Origin: Clostridiales bacterium
GTDB lineage: Bacteria; Bacillota; Clostridia; Christensenellales; Aristaeellaceae
Direction of reading: 5' to 3'
Assembly: GCA_016930575.1 (NCBI GenBank)
Contig: JAFGGL010000016.1
Location: forward strand, 1 to 43,500
Length of the DNA: 43,500 bases
Part shown: one piece after another, positions 16,399 to 31,725 of the stretch
Numbering within the stretch: position 1 is the stretch's first letter
Layout: each line of letters opens with the position of its first letter
Position numbers and translations under genes: made by a program
The notes under the pieces: model-generated
What the model saw: the letters and a program-made list of their open reading frames with translations, nothing else
Databases searched by the model: none
What the model was told of the DNA's origin: nothing

Positions 16399-17442
16399 AT
16401 GTATAAGGTCGGCGTGTATTTCGGACGCTTCTGCCCGCCGCACAGAGGCCACCTGTACCAGATCGTCGAGGCGTCCACGAAGTGCGAAAAGCTGATCGTG
16501 GTGATTTCGGACAACGAGCAGGAGACCGTGGACATCTGCCGTCAGGCGGGCCTAACGACCATCACCTATCAGCTTCGCAAGCAGTGGATCAATCAGCAGG
16601 TACAGGATATCGAACATATTGAAGTGCGCGTGCTCAACGAAAACACAATCCCGCGCTATCCATCCGGCTGGGACGAGTGGTGCAAAGAGATGCGCAACGT
16701 CGTGCCCGAGGCCATCGACGCGTTTTTCGCGGGCGACGTCAAGTTCGAAGCGATGCTCAAGCGGCATTTTCCCGAATCAGCCGTTGAGATCTTCGATCCA
16801 AAGCGCACACGCTACCCGATCTCCGCAACGGACATCCGCCACGATATCCTTGGCAACTGGGATTATATCCTGGGTTCCGCAAGGCCGTTCTTCGCCAAGA
16901 AGGTGCTGATCGCGGGCACGGAAAGCTGCGGCAAGACCACGCTGACGAAATGCCTGGCAAAGCTGTACAACACCTCCTGGTCGGAGGAAGTGGGCAGGTA
17001 TTACGCGCGGGATTATCTGGGCAGCGACGAGACTATTTTCACCGATACGGATTTTTCGCGCATCGCGCATCTGCAATATGAGCAGGATTACCATGCCCTG
17101 CGTTCGGCTAACCGCGTTTGTTTTTTCGATACGGACGCGACCTATACCGATTATTTCTCGGAATTGTTCCTCGGCCGCCGCAACGCGCTGGTGGAGGCTT
17201 ATATCGACCCCGGCCGCTACGATATGGTGCTCTTCCTGCTTCCCGACGTCCGCTGGGTGAACGACGGCCAGCGCTTAAACGGCGATCAGGAAAGACGAAT
17301 GAAATTAAGCGACCGACTGCTGGGCATGTACAGGGCGCAGGGTTTCGGCGACAAGATCACCGTGCTCTCCGGCAACTACGAGCGGCGGCTGACCAAAGCG
17401 GTCAAGCTGGTCGACGGGCTGATGCATGGGAACGCCGTATGA
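16399..17442 (+). CDS. nadR: NadR-like bifunctional NMN adenylyltransferase / ribosylnicotinamide kinase
   Basis: 347 residues. Residues 1-160 form a nucleotidyltransferase: GRFCPPHRGH at 9-18 is the HxGH ATP-binding motif and YPISATDIRHD the C-terminal ISxTxIR-type motif. Residues 168-347 form a P-loop kinase with GTESCGKTT near 173-181 and EVGRYYARDY. This is the NadR arrangement of enzymes making NMN from nicotinamide riboside and then NAD. The E. coli type also has an N-terminal DNA-binding HTH; it is absent here, so this version is probably purely catalytic. GGGGGAG precedes the ATG. Its own promoter and terminator make it a single-gene unit. Confidence 0.88.
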   Translation: MYKVGVYFGRFCPPHRGHLYQIVEASTKCEKLIVVISDNEQETVDICRQAGLTTITYQLRKQWINQQVQDIEHIEVRVLNENTIPRYPSGWDEWCKEMRNVVPEAIDAFFAGDVKFEAMLKRHFPESAVEIFDPKRTRYPISATDIRHDILGNWDYILGSARPFFAKKVLIAGTESCGKTTLTKCLAKLYNTSWSEEVGRYYARDYLGSDETIFTDTDFSRIAHLQYEQDYHALRSANRVCFFDTDATYTDYFSELFLGRRNALVEAYIDPGRYDMVLFLLPDVRWVNDGQRLNGDQERRMKLSDRLLGMYRAQGFGDKITVLSGNYERRLTKAVKLVDGLMHGNAV

Positions 17443-17454
17443 TTTAGTGCAATA

Positions 17455-17486
17455 AAAAAGAACACCCCGAACGGGGTGTTCTTTTT
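17455..17486. terminator. Bidirectional rho-independent terminator
   Basis: A5GAACACCCC (17455-17468), loop GAAC, GGGGTGTTCT5 (17473-17486): a 14-bp perfect stem with A- and T-tracts. It serves both the NadR-like gene (+) and the convergent acyl-ligase fusion gene (-). Confidence 0.92.
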
Positions 17487-17492
17487 ACGTTG

Positions 17493-20400
17493 TTACTGTG
17501 GCGCCGGCAATTTAATTCCCGTCTCTTCGGAGAGCCTCATCAGCGTATCCAGCGCCTGTACGATCTGCTCGGGCTTATGCTCGCTGATCACACAGAAGCG
17601 CAGGCGCGCTTTGTTTTTCGGCACGGCGGGGTAGACCGCCGGCGGCACGAACACGCCGTTTTCGCGCATCTTGTTGGAGAGGAAGAACGCGTGCTCGTCC
17701 TGCCCGACCAGCACGGGGATGATGGCCGAATGCCCCGCCAGGCAGATATCCAGATTGCGCCTCTTCGCCTCGGCGACGAAGAAATCGATGTTTCGTTTCA
17801 TGTTTTTCATGATCTGCGGATTGCTGCGAATCAGGCGGATGCTTGCGAGTGTCGCCCCGGCAAGCGGGGGAGAAATGCCAACGCTGAAAACAAAGCCCGG
17901 CAGGTTGTAGCGCAGGTAGGTGATCAGCGCCCTGGAGCCCGCAAGATAGCCGCCGCAGGTGCCCAGCCCCTTGGACAGCGTACCCATCTTGATATCCACG
18001 TCGTCGGGCGCGAGGCCGAAGTATTCGTCCACGCCGCCGCCGGTTTCCCCAATCACGCATGTGGAGTGCGCTTCGTCCACCAGCAGGAAGCAGCCGTACT
18101 TCTTTTTGACCGCCACAAAGGCGGGCACGTCGGCGATATCGCCGTCCATGGAATATGCGCCCTCGATGATGATCAGCACCTTCGCGAAGCGCTCACGCTG
18201 CACGCGCAGGATACGTTCCAAAGCCTCCGCGTCGTTATGGGGGAAGGGCTTGGTGGTGGCGCGGCTCAGGCGGCAGCCCTGGTCGATGGAATTATGCGCC
18301 AGCACATCATAGAGGATCAGGTCGTTCTGGTCGCAGAAGTTGCCCACGAAGGTCACGTTGGTGGAATGACCGCCGACGAGCACCAGCGCGTCCTCGGTGT
18401 GCTTCCAGTCGGCGATCTCATGCTCCAGTTCGATGTTGAGCTCCTTTTCACCGGCAAGCAGGCGGCTTCCGCTGTCGCTGGTGCCGTATTTGTCCATAGC
18501 ATCTCTGGCGGCCTGGATCACCTCCGCCCTGCCGCTCATGCCCGCGTAGTTGTAAGAGCCGAAATTCAACGCTTCTTTGCCGTCCATGATGCTGGTATCG
18601 CGCAGCGGGGATTCGTGGCAGACGAAATAGGGGTTCACGCCGCCCAGTTCGTCCAGGCTGTCGATGCGCTTCTGGAATGCGATGAATTCAGGCGCGTCCT
18701 CAAAACGCTCGATAGGCTGTATCGCCTCGTCCGGCTGCCCCTGGTTTTCATAGGCGGTCTGCCCGTTCAGCTTGGCGTAGATTAAAGCGGACATATCACT
18801 GACCGTCGTACACTGTCCGTACTCCTCTACCGGAATGGTGATGGAGAACTGCTCCTCTGTTTTCAGCGCGGCGGAGAGAACCTGCAGGCTGTCTCCGTCC
18901 AGGTCGTCGATGAAATGCTGATCGTCTGAAATGGACGCTTCGTCGATATCCAAAGCTTCCGCGTACAGGGCGCGGACTTTCTGCTTGATCTCTTCCAGTT
19001 GCAGGTCGCTTGGCTGCACCTCGCGCACGACCACTTCCTTGGGCGCTTCGGAGATCACGACCTTGGACGCGTTCATCCGCAGGTCGCGGTACGCCAGCTT
19101 GCTTTCCTCGATCAGGGCTTTCAATGCAAAGCGTTTCACCTTGATGCCGTTGACGAGCGGCAAAGGTTCGGGGGTGACGATCACGCGGGTGAGGCGTTTA
19201 AGCGTTGGGAGTTTGGCGTTGCGCAGGTTGATCTCCTGCATCAGGGTTTCCAGGTACGCGTCGTCCCTGTACGCCGCGCCGACGTTCATCACCAGCACGA
19301 TATCCTCGTATTTCTGGCTCTTTCCGGGTTTGAGCACGCCGAGCACCGTGGACTGCTCCACGCCCGCCATGGCTGAAAACACGTTGTCCAGTTCGTCGGG
19401 ATATACGTTCTCGCCAGATTCGTTGATGATCACGTCCTTGCAGCGGCCTTCCACGAACATGCGGTCGCCGCGCTCCAGGCGCACCACGTCGCCCGTGGGA
19501 TACCAGCCGCCCTCGATGGTATCGGGCGGCATACGCTTGCCGTCCACCAGGCGACCCGTGTGCAGGCTCTTGCCGCGGATGAACATCTCGCCGCGGCGGC
19601 CGTGCCCGTCGCTGGGCTTCACACGGTATTCCACGTTGCTCAGCGGCTTGCCGACGGAGCCGGAAATGCGCTTTCGCAGGTTCATGCTGGTTTCAACGCT
19701 CGTGATGGCGGTCTCCGTCATGCCAAAGCCGCAGATGGTGTAGTAACCGATGCCGTTGAGCATCTTCAGATGTTCCATCGGCGTATAGGCTCCGCCCAGG
19801 ATGATACAGGAGATATCAGAACCTAAAAGCCTGGACGTCAGGCTGCCGAAGAATACCTTCTCGGCGACCTTCAGCCCCAAATTGGGCGCGACGGTCTGTA
19901 TGCCAAGGCTGACGGCTTTCATCACATGGAACATCGTGCGCGTCAGCGCGCTTTCCTTCGCCAGCTTCTTTTGCATGCCGGTGCAGAAATTGTTTGCGAC
20001 CAGCGGAACCGTGACCAGCAGCTGCGGCTGGCATTTCTGCGCGGTCTCCAAGATCGCTTCCGGGGTGCGGTTCGCGGGATAGATGTTGGAGTACCCCAAA
20101 AAGCAGCTCCACATCAGGTTGACGATAAAGCCGAACACATGATGGAAGGGCAGGAATGCAAAGGAACGAAAATTCCGGTTCGCTACAGCGCGCCGCAGGT
20201 TGTGGAACAGGATCTCGGACGAGAGTACCTGCTCAACGATCGCCTGGCCGTTGTAATCGAATATCCGGCTCGTGCCCGTGGTGCCGCTGGTGCAAAGCGC
20301 CGCGTGATCGCCCCACGCGCCGGGGACGAAATCCTCCGCCTCCGGCGCGTTGAACAGCTCGTTGGCGTCGATATAGCGCACGGAGGGAGAAAGCGCCGGG

Positions 20401-20750
20401 CGCGGCGCGGTGGTGATGATCGCCTTGGCGCCTGCCTGGCTGATCTGGAAATTCACCATCTCGTCGGAGAGGTTCACGTCCACCAGCAGCGCGTTGTAGC
20501 CCGCCTGGATGATGCCCCAGAAAACCGGGAACCATTCCTTGCAGGTGTCCAGGGAGATGACGATGTAGGAATCCGGCTCCGCGCCGATGTTGTCGCGCAG
20601 ATACGCGGCGTAGTTCTTCGTCATACGGATGTATTCTGCGTACGAAAGGCTCTTGACCTCGCCGTTCTCAAGCCAGACCGCGGCTTCCGTATCGCCGTAG
20701 CGTGCGATGATATCATATAGGTTTTTAAGCGTCTTATCGGCGCGAAGCAA
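17493..20750 (-). CDS. Acyl-adenylate ligase - acyl carrier protein - alpha-oxoamine synthase fusion
   Basis: 1085 residues in three domains. Residues 1-550 are an AMP-forming acyl ligase: SGTTG at 155-159, GFGMTETA at 341-348, YPTGD near 417-421 and a C-terminal hinge with GRCKDVIINESGENVYPDE. Residues about 585-665 are an acyl carrier protein with phosphopantetheine Ser621 in DDLDGDSLQVL. Residues about 690-1085 are a PLP-dependent alpha-oxoamine synthase (KBL/BioF/HemA/serine palmitoyltransferase family): GTSDSGSRLLAGEKELN, DEAHSTCVIGETGGG (892-906) and PLP-Lys927 in GTLSKGLGTCGGYLAG. The enzyme should load an acid on its own ACP and condense it with an amino acid, releasing CO2 to give an alpha-aminoketone. 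The TTG start at 20750 follows AAAAGG at 9 nt; no ATG alternative with an SD is seen. It lies 38 nt after the SDR gene, in the same operon. Confidence 0.88.
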   Translation of the reverse strand: MLRADKTLKNLYDIIARYGDTEAAVWLENGEVKSLSYAEYIRMTKNYAAYLRDNIGAEPDSYIVISLDTCKEWFPVFWGIIQAGYNALLVDVNLSDEMVNFQISQAGAKAIITTAPRPALSPSVRYIDANELFNAPEAEDFVPGAWGDHAALCTSGTTGTSRIFDYNGQAIVEQVLSSEILFHNLRRAVANRNFRSFAFLPFHHVFGFIVNLMWSCFLGYSNIYPANRTPEAILETAQKCQPQLLVTVPLVANNFCTGMQKKLAKESALTRTMFHVMKAVSLGIQTVAPNLGLKVAEKVFFGSLTSRLLGSDISCIILGGAYTPMEHLKMLNGIGYYTICGFGMTETAITSVETSMNLRKRISGSVGKPLSNVEYRVKPSDGHGRRGEMFIRGKSLHTGRLVDGKRMPPDTIEGGWYPTGDVVRLERGDRMFVEGRCKDVIINESGENVYPDELDNVFSAMAGVEQSTVLGVLKPGKSQKYEDIVLVMNVGAAYRDDAYLETLMQEINLRNAKLPTLKRLTRVIVTPEPLPLVNGIKVKRFALKALIEESKLAYRDLRMNASKVVISEAPKEVVVREVQPSDLQLEEIKQKVRALYAEALDIDEASISDDQHFIDDLDGDSLQVLSAALKTEEQFSITIPVEEYGQCTTVSDMSALIYAKLNGQTAYENQGQPDEAIQPIERFEDAPEFIAFQKRIDSLDELGGVNPYFVCHESPLRDTSIMDGKEALNFGSYNYAGMSGRAEVIQAARDAMDKYGTSDSGSRLLAGEKELNIELEHEIADWKHTEDALVLVGGHSTNVTFVGNFCDQNDLILYDVLAHNSIDQGCRLSRATTKPFPHNDAEALERILRVQRERFAKVLIIIEGAYSMDGDIADVPAFVAVKKKYGCFLLVDEAHSTCVIGETGGGVDEYFGLAPDDVDIKMGTLSKGLGTCGGYLAGSRALITYLRYNLPGFVFSVGISPPLAGATLASIRLIRSNPQIMKNMKRNIDFFVAEAKRRNLDICLAGHSAIIPVLVGQDEHAFFLSNKMRENGVFVPPAVYPAVPKNKARLRFCVISEHKPEQIVQALDTLMRLSEETGIKLPAPQ

Positions 20751-20788
20751 TTCGCTGAACCTTTTTACGTCATGAACGGTAGATATAG

Positions 20789-21604
20789 TTATCCCTTCTT
20801 TCCGTAATAGCTGCGTAAAATCCGCATGTTGGTCATTGGGGGGAGGGCGTCGTGCAGGAACACGATTGCTTTCTGGTCCGTTTTAGCGATGCGGACGCGA
20901 AAACGCATCCGCTTACGTTTGACGTTGCGAAGTACGGCCTTTGCCAGTTTGGCCGGAGGCAAACCCTTGTTTTCGTCTTCCCTTATTTGCGAAACGGCGG
21001 ATGCGAAGGACTGCCTGTAGGGGGAATCGTCCTTGACGGAGACGGAAAGCCTGCAGCGCTTGCTGCCGCCGCTGTGGTCGCCGGGCTCGATCAGCGATAC
21101 CTGAACGCCCATCGGCCCGCACTCCATCGCCAGGCACTCCGCGTAGCCTTCCACGGCATGCTTGGAGGCCACGTACGCGCTTTGGAACGGGATGCCGAGT
21201 AAGCCGTTGATGGAGGAAAATAAGACGATTTTCCCGTGCGCCTGTTCGCGCATCCTGGGCAAGACCTGCGATACAAACGCAGTCATCCCCAGGAAGTTGG
21301 TCTGCATCACGCGGGTATACTCATCGTAAGACGTCAGTTCGCAGGGGGAGAGGACAAGGATCGCGGCGCAATAGATCAGCACATCAACGTGTGGGGACAG
21401 AGTAAACGCGTCCCTGACGAACGCAGCGCGGCTTTCTTCGTCGGTCACATCCAGGTGCAGCTCGCGGATCGCTTTTTCCTGCCTTGCTTTTCCGAATGAA
21501 CGCGCCCCGGATACAACGAACCAGTCATCCGCCGCGAATGCTTTTGCCGTGGCAAGCCCAAGCCCGCTGGAGCCGCCGATGATCCAAACGGTTCCCTTTT
21601 TCAC
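20789..21604 (-). CDS. Short-chain dehydrogenase/reductase, 3-ketosphinganine-reductase-like context
   Basis: 271 residues. The nucleotide motif is IGGSSGLGLATA (9-20), the catalytic triad region is Ser130/131 in FSSING with YVASKH (Tyr144, Lys148), and the NNAG position reads CAAI. The C-terminus from about 195 has EPGDHSGGSKR and a basic helical tail (RNVKRKRMRFRVR) that could touch membrane, as in reductases of lipid ketones. The GTG at 21602-21604 is chosen because GGAGG lies 7 nt upstream and the Rossmann fold starts at once. It is the first gene of the operon with the ligase-ACP-oxoamine synthase fusion, so reduction of the 3-keto condensation product is the natural inferred role. Confidence 0.82.
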   Translation of the reverse strand: MKKGTVWIIGGSSGLGLATAKAFAADDWFVVSGARSFGKARQEKAIRELHLDVTDEESRAAFVRDAFTLSPHVDVLIYCAAILVLSPCELTSYDEYTRVMQTNFLGMTAFVSQVLPRMREQAHGKIVLFSSINGLLGIPFQSAYVASKHAVEGYAECLAMECGPMGVQVSLIEPGDHSGGSKRCRLSVSVKDDSPYRQSFASAVSQIREDENKGLPPAKLAKAVLRNVKRKRMRFRVRIAKTDQKAIVFLHDALPPMTNMRILRSYYGKKG

Positions 21605-27220: not shown

Positions 27221-28399
27221 TCAGAAGCCGTAGGTGTACGCCATCACAACGGCGCCCATATTGTCGATGCTGGCCAGATACTCGCTGGACAGGCTGGTGA
27301 TGGGCAGGTCGTATGCAGTTTGCTTGTTGACGCTGATTCTGACGATCTCATACCGCAGCACGTCGTTTTCATAGATCGTAATATGCGGGTGATCCATCAG
27401 GAACTCGACGTATTCCTCCAGGCAGTACCCAAGGATCTGCATCGCGACCGCATGCGGCTTGCCGACGTAACGGTATAAGTTCAGGTGGATGGATACGCCG
27501 GTTTTGTAGGATTTATCTTCCCATTGCGGGGTGGGGAAGTCGTCTGACGGGAAACGGAAGATGATGCCGTATTTCCAGCTGTTGTCGGTCACCCAGATTC
27601 CCTGCTCCGATTCCTGGAAATTCTGTTTGGCTACGTTAGGATCCTCGGCGTTGTAAAGCCCGAGCCTGAACGACAACCCCGTTTGATACTCGCTGGTACC
27701 GGGATAGTTCACGGTTTTTTTGGTTTGCTCGATCAAGATGTTCCCGGAATACTTATCCGAAAGCTTGTCCATGACGTCCGTGAACAGCTCCGTCTGCGTT
27801 TTGTTGGTACGGAAACCCTCGCGTACGATATAGTCCGACATTCCGGCAGCGGTGGCGTCGTCATACATCGCCTTCAGCGCGCTGTATGCGTTGGGGAAGA
27901 TCATGACGGTCGAATCCTGCACGGGGATGCTCCACCCGCTTGCGTTTCCGATGCTTATCATGTTGGCGCTGTCGAAGTGATCGGGCACGGAATGCCAGCC
28001 GTTCACAAGCATCAATCCGCCTTCGCAAAGCGTGGAACTGCTGATGGTGACGGTATAGGTGTTTTCAAGCCCCGCGCCGCCTTCGTCCTCAATACGCCAG
28101 GCGGTATCCTCGAGCGTCGCTTCCCACGAGGGCAGGGTTACCACAACGTCCTCGTCGGTGCTGACGGACTGCGAAGCGCTTTCGCGCAGCGCGTCGAGCT
28201 CCATATTGAAGGCCTGCTCATCGGCGATATTCTGCTGATGGATATCCTCCACGATGGCGCGGTATTCGGAATCGACCCACGCGTTGCACACAAGGAAAAC
28301 CGCAAGGCCGATCAGCGCGACGGCCGCGATGATGATGGTGATCCGAACGAATATCTTGTACGGATCCTTTTTGCGCTTCTGCTTTTTTGGTGCAGTCAT
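27221..28399 (-). CDS. Membrane-anchored M15B (VanY-like) family protein lacking the zinc ligands
   Basis: 392 residues. A basic N-terminus (KKQKRKKD) and one transmembrane segment (about 16-38) place the rest outside the membrane. The C-terminal half keeps the layout of D-Ala-D-Ala carboxypeptidases of the VanY/M15B family: VREGFRTNKTQTELF, YPGTSEYQTGLSFRL, NSWKYGIIFRFP and LNLYRYVG. However, the SEHQTGLxxD site reads SEYQTGLSFR (about 236-245) and EPWHxRYVG reads HLNLYRYVG. His, Asp and His zinc ligands are thus replaced by Tyr, Arg and Leu. The protein is probably a non-catalytic cell-wall binder or regulator. Start: the ATG at 28397-28399 has AGGTGG about 6 nt upstream; a GTG at 28408 is an alternative. 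It is 26 nt after parB, probably in the parAB operon. Confidence 0.75.
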   Translation of the reverse strand: MTAPKKQKRKKDPYKIFVRITIIIAAVALIGLAVFLVCNAWVDSEYRAIVEDIHQQNIADEQAFNMELDALRESASQSVSTDEDVVVTLPSWEATLEDTAWRIEDEGGAGLENTYTVTISSSTLCEGGLMLVNGWHSVPDHFDSANMISIGNASGWSIPVQDSTVMIFPNAYSALKAMYDDATAAGMSDYIVREGFRTNKTQTELFTDVMDKLSDKYSGNILIEQTKKTVNYPGTSEYQTGLSFRLGLYNAEDPNVAKQNFQESEQGIWVTDNSWKYGIIFRFPSDDFPTPQWEDKSYKTGVSIHLNLYRYVGKPHAVAMQILGYCLEEYVEFLMDHPHITIYENDVLRYEIVRISVNKQTAYDLPITSLSSEYLASIDNMGAVVMAYTYGF

Positions 28400-28425
28400 C
28401 TCTGCCACCTGCCCTTTCCAACTTG

Positions 28426-30133: not shown

Positions 30134-31021
30134 TCACCACATCGACAGAGAGACTTCGGGATCGCCGTCGTCGCCGTAAACGTCCAATACCGTGGTCGTC
30201 ACGGCAGCCGGTGCCATCGTGCTTTCCCAAAGGAGCTGTGCCTGCACATTCCCGCCGTCCATGAGAAACGCATCCAGCGCTGCCTGCCATTCGACGGTGA
30301 ATTCCTCAAGAGTCAGCCCCGTACGCTTGATGTAGCCTGCGATCTCCCGCCCGACATAGCGCAGATGCCAGGGTTCGTAAGGAACCTGCGTGATGTCCTC
30401 CTTATCCTCCGGATAGCGGATGATGAAGCCGAAGGCGGCGGCGTTTTCCTCCATCCACTGCGCTTCGGGCGTTCCGTAGTTGGATGAATTCATGTACTGA
30501 TGCGTGTTGTTATAGTCCACGCTGAGCACGTCCGCCGCAAGGCCGGTCTGATGTTCGCTGGAGCCGGGCGGCGAGGATATGCCGTCGTCGACGCCGCCGT
30601 TGCGCGCGAGGTAATTATTGTAAATTGTATATTGGGAGCTATAGGAACGGTAGCCGCTTTTCAATACAAGCTGCATGCCGTCGGGGTCGGAGAAAGCGGT
30701 ATAGACCCAACTCCCGTCCGAATCTTCCACCCTGTACAGGTATTCGGTCACTTTGGCGGCGGTATCGAACATATCCTGAAGCGCGGCGGCGACGACCGCG
30801 TCCAGTTCTATCACCGTGCTTGATACCTTCCGCACTTCCGCGCTGACCATGTTGCCGGGGATATAATCGCTTTCCAGCTTGTGATTCCTGTTGACAAGGA
30901 TCGTATATTCGCTTAAGACAGCGGAAAGCGGGATTTCGTAGGTCCATTCCGCCTCCGATAGGGCAACGCTTGCGGGTAATGTGAGTAAGACCAGGAGCAT
31001 GACGGCGATCAATCGTTTCAT
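30134..31021 (-). CDS. Secreted M15B D-alanyl-D-alanine carboxypeptidase (VanY-like)
   Basis: 295 residues. Residues 1-24 are a signal peptide (MKRLIAVMLLVLLTLPASVALSEA). The catalytic domain has KSGYRSYSSQYTIYNNYL near 121-138, the zinc motif SSEHQTGLAADV with His157 and Asp164, FGFIIRYPEDKEDIT and EPWHLRYVG with His219. All zinc ligands are intact, so it should trim the terminal D-Ala of peptidoglycan stem peptides outside the cell. It overlaps the upstream M15B gene as ATGA and is the last gene of the iscR-hflX cluster on this strand. GAGGTG precedes the ATG. Confidence 0.9.
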   Translation of the reverse strand: MKRLIAVMLLVLLTLPASVALSEAEWTYEIPLSAVLSEYTILVNRNHKLESDYIPGNMVSAEVRKVSSTVIELDAVVAAALQDMFDTAAKVTEYLYRVEDSDGSWVYTAFSDPDGMQLVLKSGYRSYSSQYTIYNNYLARNGGVDDGISSPPGSSEHQTGLAADVLSVDYNNTHQYMNSSNYGTPEAQWMEENAAAFGFIIRYPEDKEDITQVPYEPWHLRYVGREIAGYIKRTGLTLEEFTVEWQAALDAFLMDGGNVQAQLLWESTMAPAAVTTTVLDVYGDDGDPEVSLSMW

Positions 31022-31698
31022 GGAAGCACCTCGTTGGTTTGTTGCACCAGATATGTGTACAGTTCCATACGGTGCAAGGAGACGTACAGGTCCAGCGGTA
31101 ATCCCGACTTATAGACCGCTTTGGCATATTCCTTGCCGATATAGCGGATATGCCAGGGCTCGTAGGCATAGCCTGTGATCTCTTCCATGCCTTCCTGGTA
31201 GCGTATGATAAATCCGTACAGATGCGCATTTTCCGCGACCCATTGGCCTTCCGTTGTCGTGCCGAACTTGCTGGAAAGGCTGGAGGAGGTAGATTTAGTC
31301 ACGTCCATGGCAAGCCCGAGCTGATGCTCACTGCTTCCGGGAAGTGCCACATAGGAATCGGCGACTTCGATGCCGGCGGACGCTACCTTGCGCTCATAGA
31401 TCGTATTCTGCTTGGAATAGCTGCGGTAACCCGATACCGTCGCCAGGCGGACGCCGTCCGCTTTGGCCGCGGCGAACATCTCCTCCAGCGCCGTTGCGGC
31501 GTCTTCGCGCATGGATTGGGATAATCCCGCCAAATCCGTTATGCGGGTCTTCGGCACATAATCCTCGCTGATCATTTGGCTGCGGTTGATTAAAAAAAAG
31601 GTACCGTCGATATTCTTGTCCGGCATGGCAACGTCCATACCGCCTTTAAGCAGCGAGGCGGCCAAAAGCATCACGGAGAGGGCTTGTTCGATCACCAA
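31018..31698 (-). CDS. M15B D-alanyl-D-alanine carboxypeptidase (VanY-like)
   Basis: About 226 residues. After a short hydrophobic N-terminus (ALSVMLLAASLL) that may act as a signal anchor, it has VSGYRSYSKQNTIYERKV, SSEHQLGLAMDV (His125, Asp132), YGFIIRYQEGMEEITGY and EPWHIRYIG (His183), so the zinc site is complete. The start is uncertain. TTG at 31698 has AAAGGG 9 nt upstream; GTG at 31695 and a TTG at 31725 that abuts the hflX stop are alternatives. It lies directly after hflX and overlaps the next M15B gene by ATGA, forming a tandem paralogous pair. Confidence 0.85.
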   Translation of the reverse strand: MVIEQALSVMLLAASLLKGGMDVAMPDKNIDGTFFLINRSQMISEDYVPKTRITDLAGLSQSMREDAATALEEMFAAAKADGVRLATVSGYRSYSKQNTIYERKVASAGIEVADSYVALPGSSEHQLGLAMDVTKSTSSSLSSKFGTTTEGQWVAENAHLYGFIIRYQEGMEEITGYAYEPWHIRYIGKEYAKAVYKSGLPLDLYVSLHRMELYTYLVQQTNEVLP

Positions 31699-31725
31699 GA
31701 GCGCACACCCTTTTAAAAAAATCAA

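Follow-up and report, generated by a model that had tools for sequence, protein, structure and literature searches.

The closest described route to bacterial sphingoid bases is that of Pseudomonas fluorescens MYb115, in which the iterative polyketide synthase (PKS) SgaA and the alpha-oxoamine synthase (AOS) SgaB give rise to C24-C28 sphinganines and phosphoglycerol sphingolipids. For purified PfSgaB, L-serine is almost the sole substrate when compared with alanine and glycine; the short-chain dehydrogenase (SDR) SgaC has been proposed as the ketone reductase (PMC12134224). According to the same source, the presence of a canonical serine palmitoyltransferase (SPT) is used to judge which bacteria make sphingolipids. 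Here, we analyzed the first 43,500 nucleotides of contig JAFGGL010000016.1 (assembly GCA_016930575.1) of a Clostridiales bacterium, hereafter the window. It holds a single open reading frame (ORF) that joins an AMP-ligase, an acyl carrier protein (ACP) and an AOS, next to an SDR gene. We consider it likely that this pair would turn a fatty acid and serine into sphinganine. Among the matches listed, we found no description of a ligase-ACP-AOS fusion or of clostridial sphingolipid synthesis in the openly licensed literature.

An intact ligase-ACP-AOS fusion with a KdsR-like partner

The main features, in window coordinates, are as follows.

17493-20750, minus strand: AMP-ligase/ACP/AOS fusion ORF, 1085 codons, listed start TTG
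19071..20750, minus strand: putative fatty acid AMP-ligase domain, residues ~1-560, catalytic Lys537 (Pfam, alignment, model)
18780..18983, minus strand: ACP domain, residues 590-657, phosphopantetheine Ser621 (Pfam)
17496..18680, minus strand: pyridoxal 5'-phosphate (PLP) AOS domain, residues 691-1085, with Lys927, His819, Asp892, His895 and Arg1051 (Pfam, phylogeny, residues, model)
17880..17882, minus strand: Val957, the position of Ala in bacterial SPT and of Lys281 in the cysteate transferase SulA (alignment)
20789-21604, minus strand: KdsR-like SDR (P0002), 271 residues, GTG start

A first-pass annotation of the window had described a ligase-ACP-AOS fusion preceded by an SDR, and the ORFs, Pfam domains, motifs (S621, K927) and recurrence in relatives confirmed this make-up. 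Three Pfam families matched the fusion above their curated cut-offs: AMP-binding (residues 16-397, 132 bits), PP-binding (590-657, 46.3 bits) and Aminotran_1_2 (727-1069, 156 bits). The motifs comprise TSGTTGTS from residue 154, GFGMTET from 341, the ligase K537, DGDSL with S621 and GTLSK with K927. K537 and K927 were invariant across aligned relatives; in a 26-row alignment the ligase core motifs were kept, and the DSL of the ACP was present in the rows complete at that site. A predicted model of the ligase domain (pLDDT 84.4) gave adenylation-peptidyl carrier protein didomain and acyl-CoA synthetase structures as its top Foldseek matches, and its substrate would be a fatty acid.

In the AOS domain, the active-site set of the PLP AOS superfamily (Lys, Asp, two His, Arg) is complete. 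The PLP lysine K927, the stacking histidine H819, and D892, H895 and R1051 were kept in 40/40 aligned rows (29 fused, 3 stand-alone, 8 from PKS or capsule loci). Position 957 was Val in 28/29 fused rows (Ala in one), in 3/3 stand-alone rows and in 7/8 PKS/capsule rows. The SYNY stretch occurred in all fused rows and is common to three LCB2 rows, with a near-match (TYNY) in SpSPT and a different stretch (SNSY) in SmSPT. CGGY is common to the fusion and Arabidopsis LCB2a; human LCB2 has SGGY and yeast LCB2 has AGGY. The predicted AOS model (pLDDT 91.5) best matched SmSPT (3a2b) by VIA-align at Z 51.9, a comparison that fails to separate SPT from KBL (Z 50.2). The NCBIfam models ranked bioF first (332 bits, cut-off 426) and SPT second, with scores against cut-offs of 302/640 for NF047600, 262.5/500 for NF047599 and 221/670 for NF047603.

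The SDR matched Pfam adh_short at 129 bits and carries YVASK and SS motifs. Its best NCBIfam model was 3-ketodihydrosphingosine reductase (KdsR, NF049977) at 201.7 bits, with the next model at 158.7. The KdsR cut-off of 400 was reached in 0/9 genomes, the source included, and in 0/14 controls, Bacteroides ihuae among them, so missing it says little.

The AOS domain joins PKS- and capsule-associated enzymes

We placed the AOS domain in three trees, one of 78 rows (L112, L113, L125 and L087 dropped as repeats) and two, of 56 and 60 rows, from a thinned set. High-scoring segment pairs under 250 query residues were excluded, and L043 and cut loci are therefore absent. Fused AOS domains and stand-alone ones formed one clade of 32 rows in the 78-row tree (support 100/100). 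The fused AOS was joined to eight AOS from PKS and capsule loci at 100/97, 100/98 and 100/98 in the 78-, 56- and 60-row trees, lying beside these eight rather than inside them. The eight are a Planktothrix PKS, a Streptomyces ketosynthase-acyltransferase-ACP-AOS protein and loci of Paraburkholderia, Pseudomonas, Caballeronia, Sinorhizobium, Methylobacterium (a record without annotation) and Acidisoma.

The first-pass annotation had named a place inside the KBL or BioF clades as the outcome that would contradict it. In all three trees the fused AOS lies outside the KBL, BioF, HemA and bacterial SPT clades; no model cut-off was reached either, and BioF, KBL and HemA membership was rejected. Forcing the fused rows together with bacterial SPT (SmSPT, SpSPT) cost 91 log units and was rejected by an approximately unbiased (AU) test (p-AU 0.000158).

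The Pseudomonas member of the eight (L090) is a plasmid cluster in which the PKS gene is followed by the AOS gene and, five listed genes further, by an SDR gene. This layout agrees with the locus tags in PMC12134224, and L090 is presumably an sga cluster. For its AOS, as for the fused one, bioF ranks first among the NCBIfam models, with an equal bioF score and otherwise similar scores. Because the L090 AOS scores only 278 for SPT, the position of the fused AOS below the SPT cut-offs says little.

Other AOS of the nearest clade sit in capsule loci with lipoteichoic acid (LTA)-synthase-like and capsule genes. The Sinorhizobium meliloti locus resembles what we take, from its layout, to be the rkp-1 region. 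The products of rkp-1 genes are believed to build a lipid that carries or anchors the K antigen (PMC3557214). Further AOS genes were seen at L094 (7037-11074), L096, L097, L100 and L101, which include Streptomyces, Thioclava and Methylocystis plasmids; judging from gene names, these are PKS, pyrrole-like or tryptophan-gene-like natural product clusters.

LCB2 from human, yeast and Arabidopsis formed the next branch (100/94 in the 56-row and 99/96 in the 60-row tree). Forcing LCB2 together with bacterial SPT gave p-AU 0.0215, in a test framed after the tree had been seen and with long LCB2 branches. We tentatively raise a broader reading that we hold to be less likely than not. In it, a Clostridia lineage would produce true sphingolipids by means of one polypeptide, able to charge its built-in ACP and to condense the chain with serine. 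Its AOS would belong to the bacterial branch nearest LCB2, and the bacterial kin of the eukaryotic enzyme would lie in this branch rather than in the SPT of Bacteroidota or Sphingomonas.

The reductase co-occurs with the AOS across the family

We surveyed 42 genomes of the family for the AOS (>460 bits) and the SDR ortholog (>190 bits). The AOS was found in 24 and the SDR ortholog in 25, with both in 22, AOS only in 2, SDR only in 3 and neither in 15. The SDR ortholog thus occurred in 22/24 genomes with the AOS and in 3/18 without it (Fisher p 9e-7, kinship uncorrected). Six of the 42 genomes had been picked from a list with an AOS match; among the other 36, the SDR occurred in 17/19 with the AOS and 2/17 without (Fisher p 5e-6, kinship likewise uncorrected). 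In G298, which has the AOS only, a KdsR-model match of 194 bits is 30% identical to P0002. The SDR-only genomes are G303, G348 and G292, the last being 60% complete with its fusion broken by a contig end.

Among the 22 genomes with both genes, the SDR adjoins the fusion in 10 and lies elsewhere in 11 (in G485, ~6 kb upstream), and G295 is undecided by a contig end. The shared operon of the first-pass annotation thus gives way, across the family, to an association at the genome level. In G308 and G304 (L145 and L149), the unlinked SDR ortholog sits beside the same two genes, one of them SPFH-like at its beginning (by eye).

The fusion recurs in one Clostridia order

The source genome carries a single copy of the fusion. 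Of 59 other genomes searched, 13 contain the same fusion almost end to end, with 44-73% identity, so it is no chance artefact; nor is it confined to the source genome. At 1e-60, 32/60 genomes (the source and 59 relatives) matched the whole protein, a count that includes separate AOS genes. Near-full-length fusions were found in 14/60, the source included, and further ones are broken by contig ends. Frames of more than 1000 codons with a fused-clade AOS, ligase included, were also seen in another family of the order (f97; genomes G386, G403 and G420). Within this Clostridia order, the architecture extends to two families at the least.

Parts of the fusion also occurred apart. G343 has ligase-ACP alone, in two copies, plus a separate SPT-like gene. 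In a phylum sample of 398 genomes, with at most two candidates scored per genome, 41 matched at 1e-75: one full-length fusion (the source), two ACP-AOS proteins (both in family f142), one ligase-ACP protein (G808) and 37 AOS alone, six of which were placed in a tree and fell into another clade. In a class sample, 3/291 genomes matched at 1e-100, namely the source and two with the ligase part only. A genome-contig scan yielded 10 loci whose match spans the bulk or the whole of the query, several of them probably duplicate records of surveyed genomes. The carriers are metagenome genomes of Clostridiales, Clostridia and Eubacteriales, including some from sheep rectum and colon; L043 is labelled Bacteroidales.

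In the f142 genomes, a gene for a CDP-alcohol phosphatidyltransferase directly precedes the ACP-AOS gene (L163 6959-9207, L164 6491-8722). The phosphatidyltransferase was identified by a Pfam match in L163, and its L164 homolog is 79% identical. The f142 ACP-AOS belongs to the fused clade (60-row tree), and this neighbor fits a head-group-type partner and a phospho-head-group lipid.

Stand-alone SPT-like AOS genes were found in 53/200 genomes of the order at 496-564 bits to NF047600 (cut-off 640; e.g., L069, L075-L083), in a search whose looser limit also matched 8/14 control genomes, including E. coli and B. subtilis. L073 and L074 are such AOS from two genomes of the family. Those placed in the 78- and 56-row trees group with Bacteroidota SPT. 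An SDR gene adjoins the SPT-like AOS in L069, L073 and L074, and KdsR was the best model for the two scanned, L069 and L073 (282 and 217 bits). By these sequence criteria, the canonical route to sphingolipids may be common among Clostridia. Within the 42 family genomes, G296, G300, G310 and G314 hold a stand-alone SPT-like AOS, none of them with a fused-clade AOS (chance of zero overlap 0.03 for 42 genomes and 0.04 for the 36, kinship ignored). Such mutual exclusion is not general, because f97 genomes hold both.

A likely route to sphinganine and its alternatives

In the route that we favor, the ligase domain would adenylate a free fatty acid with ATP and load the fused ACP. An amino acid, with L-serine the likeliest, would be bound by the AOS as its PLP aldimine and condensed with the ACP-bound acyl chain; CO2 would be lost and 3-ketosphinganine released. 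The KdsR-like SDR with NAD(P)H would then reduce 3-ketosphinganine to sphinganine. We regard this sequence, from fatty acid through acyl-ACP and 3-ketosphinganine to sphinganine, as probable. What the sequences show is the set of domains, the integrity of the catalytic residues, the clade of the AOS and its co-occurrence with the SDR at the genome level. We infer the remainder: serine, the fatty acid and its length, cis-loading of the ACP, and a product that would end up as a membrane or surface-glycan lipid.

The sphingoid-base reading of the first-pass annotation, with built-in acyl activation and carrier and an SDR as ketone reductase, is supported. Its call of an unreported aminoketone lipid or signal fares less well: because the nearest clade contains SgaB-like enzymes and PfSgaB is L-serine-specific (PMC12134224), ordinary sphinganine is likelier. 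On the same grounds the amino acid, which had been called unknown, is not wholly open. The chemistry is of a known kind, with no new class of molecule. "Self-contained" was also too strong a term: the pair supplies neither the fatty acid nor serine, it encodes no phosphopantetheinyl transferase, any N-acylation or head-group step would be the work of other genes, and in 11/22 family genomes with both genes the two are apart.

Several observations weigh against the sphinganine route. For the AOS, bioF is the top NCBIfam model and no equivalog cut-off was reached, the ligase domain matches general families only, and Val957 stands where bacterial SPT has Ala. In the trees, the eight PKS/capsule rows form their own group at 98/97 and 99/94, but at 85/54 in the 60-row tree; roots are at midpoint, which in the LCB2 trees falls on the KBL/BioF side; and the position of PfSgaB rests on L090 as a stand-in, whose SDR is nearest to PRK07024, not KdsR. 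Stand-alone AOS in G298, G320 and G304, without a ligase at 1e-15, are nested in the fused clade. In the co-occurrence survey, both bit thresholds were set after the scores had been seen and the family genomes are not independent. The AOS occurs without the SDR ortholog in G298 and G315, and the SDR without the AOS in G303 and G348; the f97 genomes G367, G386, G403 and G420 lack the SDR ortholog at 1e-30. Finally, the probable start codon of the fusion in the source genome is ATA, where same-genus relatives have ATG.

One alternative differs from the sphinganine route in the fate of the product only: instead of being a bulk membrane lipid, the base would anchor or carry a surface glycan, a role proposed for the lipid of rhizobial rkpA/rkpGHIJ. 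AOS genes of the nearest clade lie in capsule loci, a lipid carrier or anchor role has been proposed for rkp genes (PMC3557214), and in the same-genus locus L047 the pair has a UDP-GlcNAc 2-epimerase gene close by. However, the neighbors in the window are not glycan-like by eye (the family scan covered the DUF362 gene only), and of the 18 flanking ORFs scanned in relatives, 17 have neither a nucleotide-sugar nor a capsule identity, three of the 17 being without a family match. The rkp names of the S. meliloti locus are themselves inferred from layout. We judge this fate unlikely.

The same condensation might instead use alanine, glycine or another amino acid, yielding a 1-deoxysphinganine-like base, an aminoketone signal or a natural product. 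Related AOS in PKS or secondary-metabolite-like clusters, together with Val957 and an SVG stretch unlike bacterial SPT, would agree with this, and the hidden Markov models give no decision. On the other hand, PfSgaB, the characterized enzyme that we take as nearest in kind, rejects alanine and glycine (PMC12134224), the partner SDR is KdsR-like, and the 18 flanking ORFs at seven loci show no recurring tailoring set, with one PucR-type regulator and one transporter occurring singly. A different amino acid therefore seems distinctly improbable.

A BioW-BioF-like fusion, in which an acyl ligase and an 8-amino-7-oxononanoate synthase would act in a biotin or related small-molecule pathway, is suggested by bioF as the top NCBIfam model and by a published natural BioW-BioF fusion (PMC9544090). 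Yet 332 bits is below the bioF cut-off of 426, the domain falls outside the BioF rows of the three trees, and the Pseudomonas L090 AOS has the same bioF score. With a built-in ACP, a KdsR-like partner and no adjoining bio genes by eye, we think this very improbable. A cysteate acyltransferase opening a sulfonolipid (capnine) pathway is the weakest candidate, and we give it hardly any credence: SulA also uses acyl-ACP and shares the fold (PMC9304779; 7u7h, Z 44.5), but the lysine proposed as diagnostic against the Ala of bacterial SPT (Lys281; PMC9304779) is replaced by Val957 here and, across the fused rows, by Val in 28/29 and Ala in one; SulA identity was rejected for want of this lysine, and cysteate is unlikely.

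Gene layout around the pair

Three further features were noted in the window.

20784-20786, minus strand: likely true start of the fusion, here ATA; ATG at the same codon in same-genus L045, L046 and L047
20793-20798, minus strand: ribosome-binding-site-like GAAGGG ahead of the fusion (by eye)
17451-17484, strand unassigned: GC-rich hairpin followed by a T run, terminator-like (by eye), between the fusion and the convergent nadR-like gene

The SDR gene directly precedes the fusion ORF, both on the minus strand. Upstream of the pair is a divergent DUF362-ferredoxin gene from 21741 (DUF362 by Pfam scan) and downstream a convergent nadR-like gene at 16399-17442 (named by eye); with such flanking genes, the pair stands alone. 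The fusion probably starts at 20786, 12 codons upstream of the listed TTG, at a codon 2 nt past the SDR stop and 6 nt behind GAAGGG. The ATA there would reflect either an unusual start codon, a mutation in this strain or a fault in the assembly.

A fixed larger gene cluster was rejected, as the 18 flanking ORFs scanned at seven loci of relatives were mostly housekeeping. They include rRNA methyltransferases, CdaA, RecQ, malic enzyme and 1-deoxyxylulose 5-phosphate (DXP) synthase; others are a PucR-type regulator, a transporter, a UDP-GlcNAc 2-epimerase and three without a family match. Elsewhere in the window, three VanY-like (D-Ala-D-Ala carboxypeptidase) paralogs at 27221-28408, 30134-31021 and 31018-31725, on the minus strand, surround parA/parB-like genes (by eye).

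Comparison with known systems

Because the fusion scores below each of the three SPT cut-offs and annotation would label it BioF-like, its hosts, sheep-gut metagenome genomes among them, would be missed where canonical SPT is the marker. If active, the pair would add uncultured Clostridia to the sphingolipid makers as an unrecognized group, provide a biocatalyst that leads from fatty acid to 3-ketosphinganine within one protein, and bear on the origin of eukaryotic SPT.

Two proteins set precedents for parts of the architecture, and one of them, TamA, also bears an ACP. TamA is a precedent for a fatty-acid adenylating enzyme (PMC5939613) and the natural BioWF fusion for joining a ligase to an AOS (PMC9544090). 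Neither, as far as the excerpts of these papers go, combines ligase, ACP and AOS, and their substrates differ.

The functions of acyl-ACP synthetase, dedicated ACP and SPT are shared with Caulobacter and Rhodobacteria, where they are separate proteins rather than one polypeptide (PMC9386255). The AOS of the fusion also belongs to another clade than the SPT rows it was tested against, SmSPT and SpSPT. With the Bacteroidota SPT and KdsR (NF047600, NF049977) and the SPT-like/SDR pairs of its own order, the locus shares a KdsR-type SDR and the same expected reaction; theirs is a stand-alone SPT of the bacterial clade, without a fusion.

PfSgaA/PfSgaB/PfSgaC resemble the locus in having an AOS of the nearest-clade kind (via the stand-in L090), a KDSR-like SDR partner and a carrier-borne acyl chain. 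The Sga system relies on an iterative type I PKS to build the chain, whereas the ligase of the fusion would load a ready-made fatty acid; no PKS-sized ORF lies beside the fusion, which has ligase-ACP instead. The partner SDR is KdsR-like here and nearest PRK07024 in L090, and the hosts are Clostridia rather than Gram-negatives.

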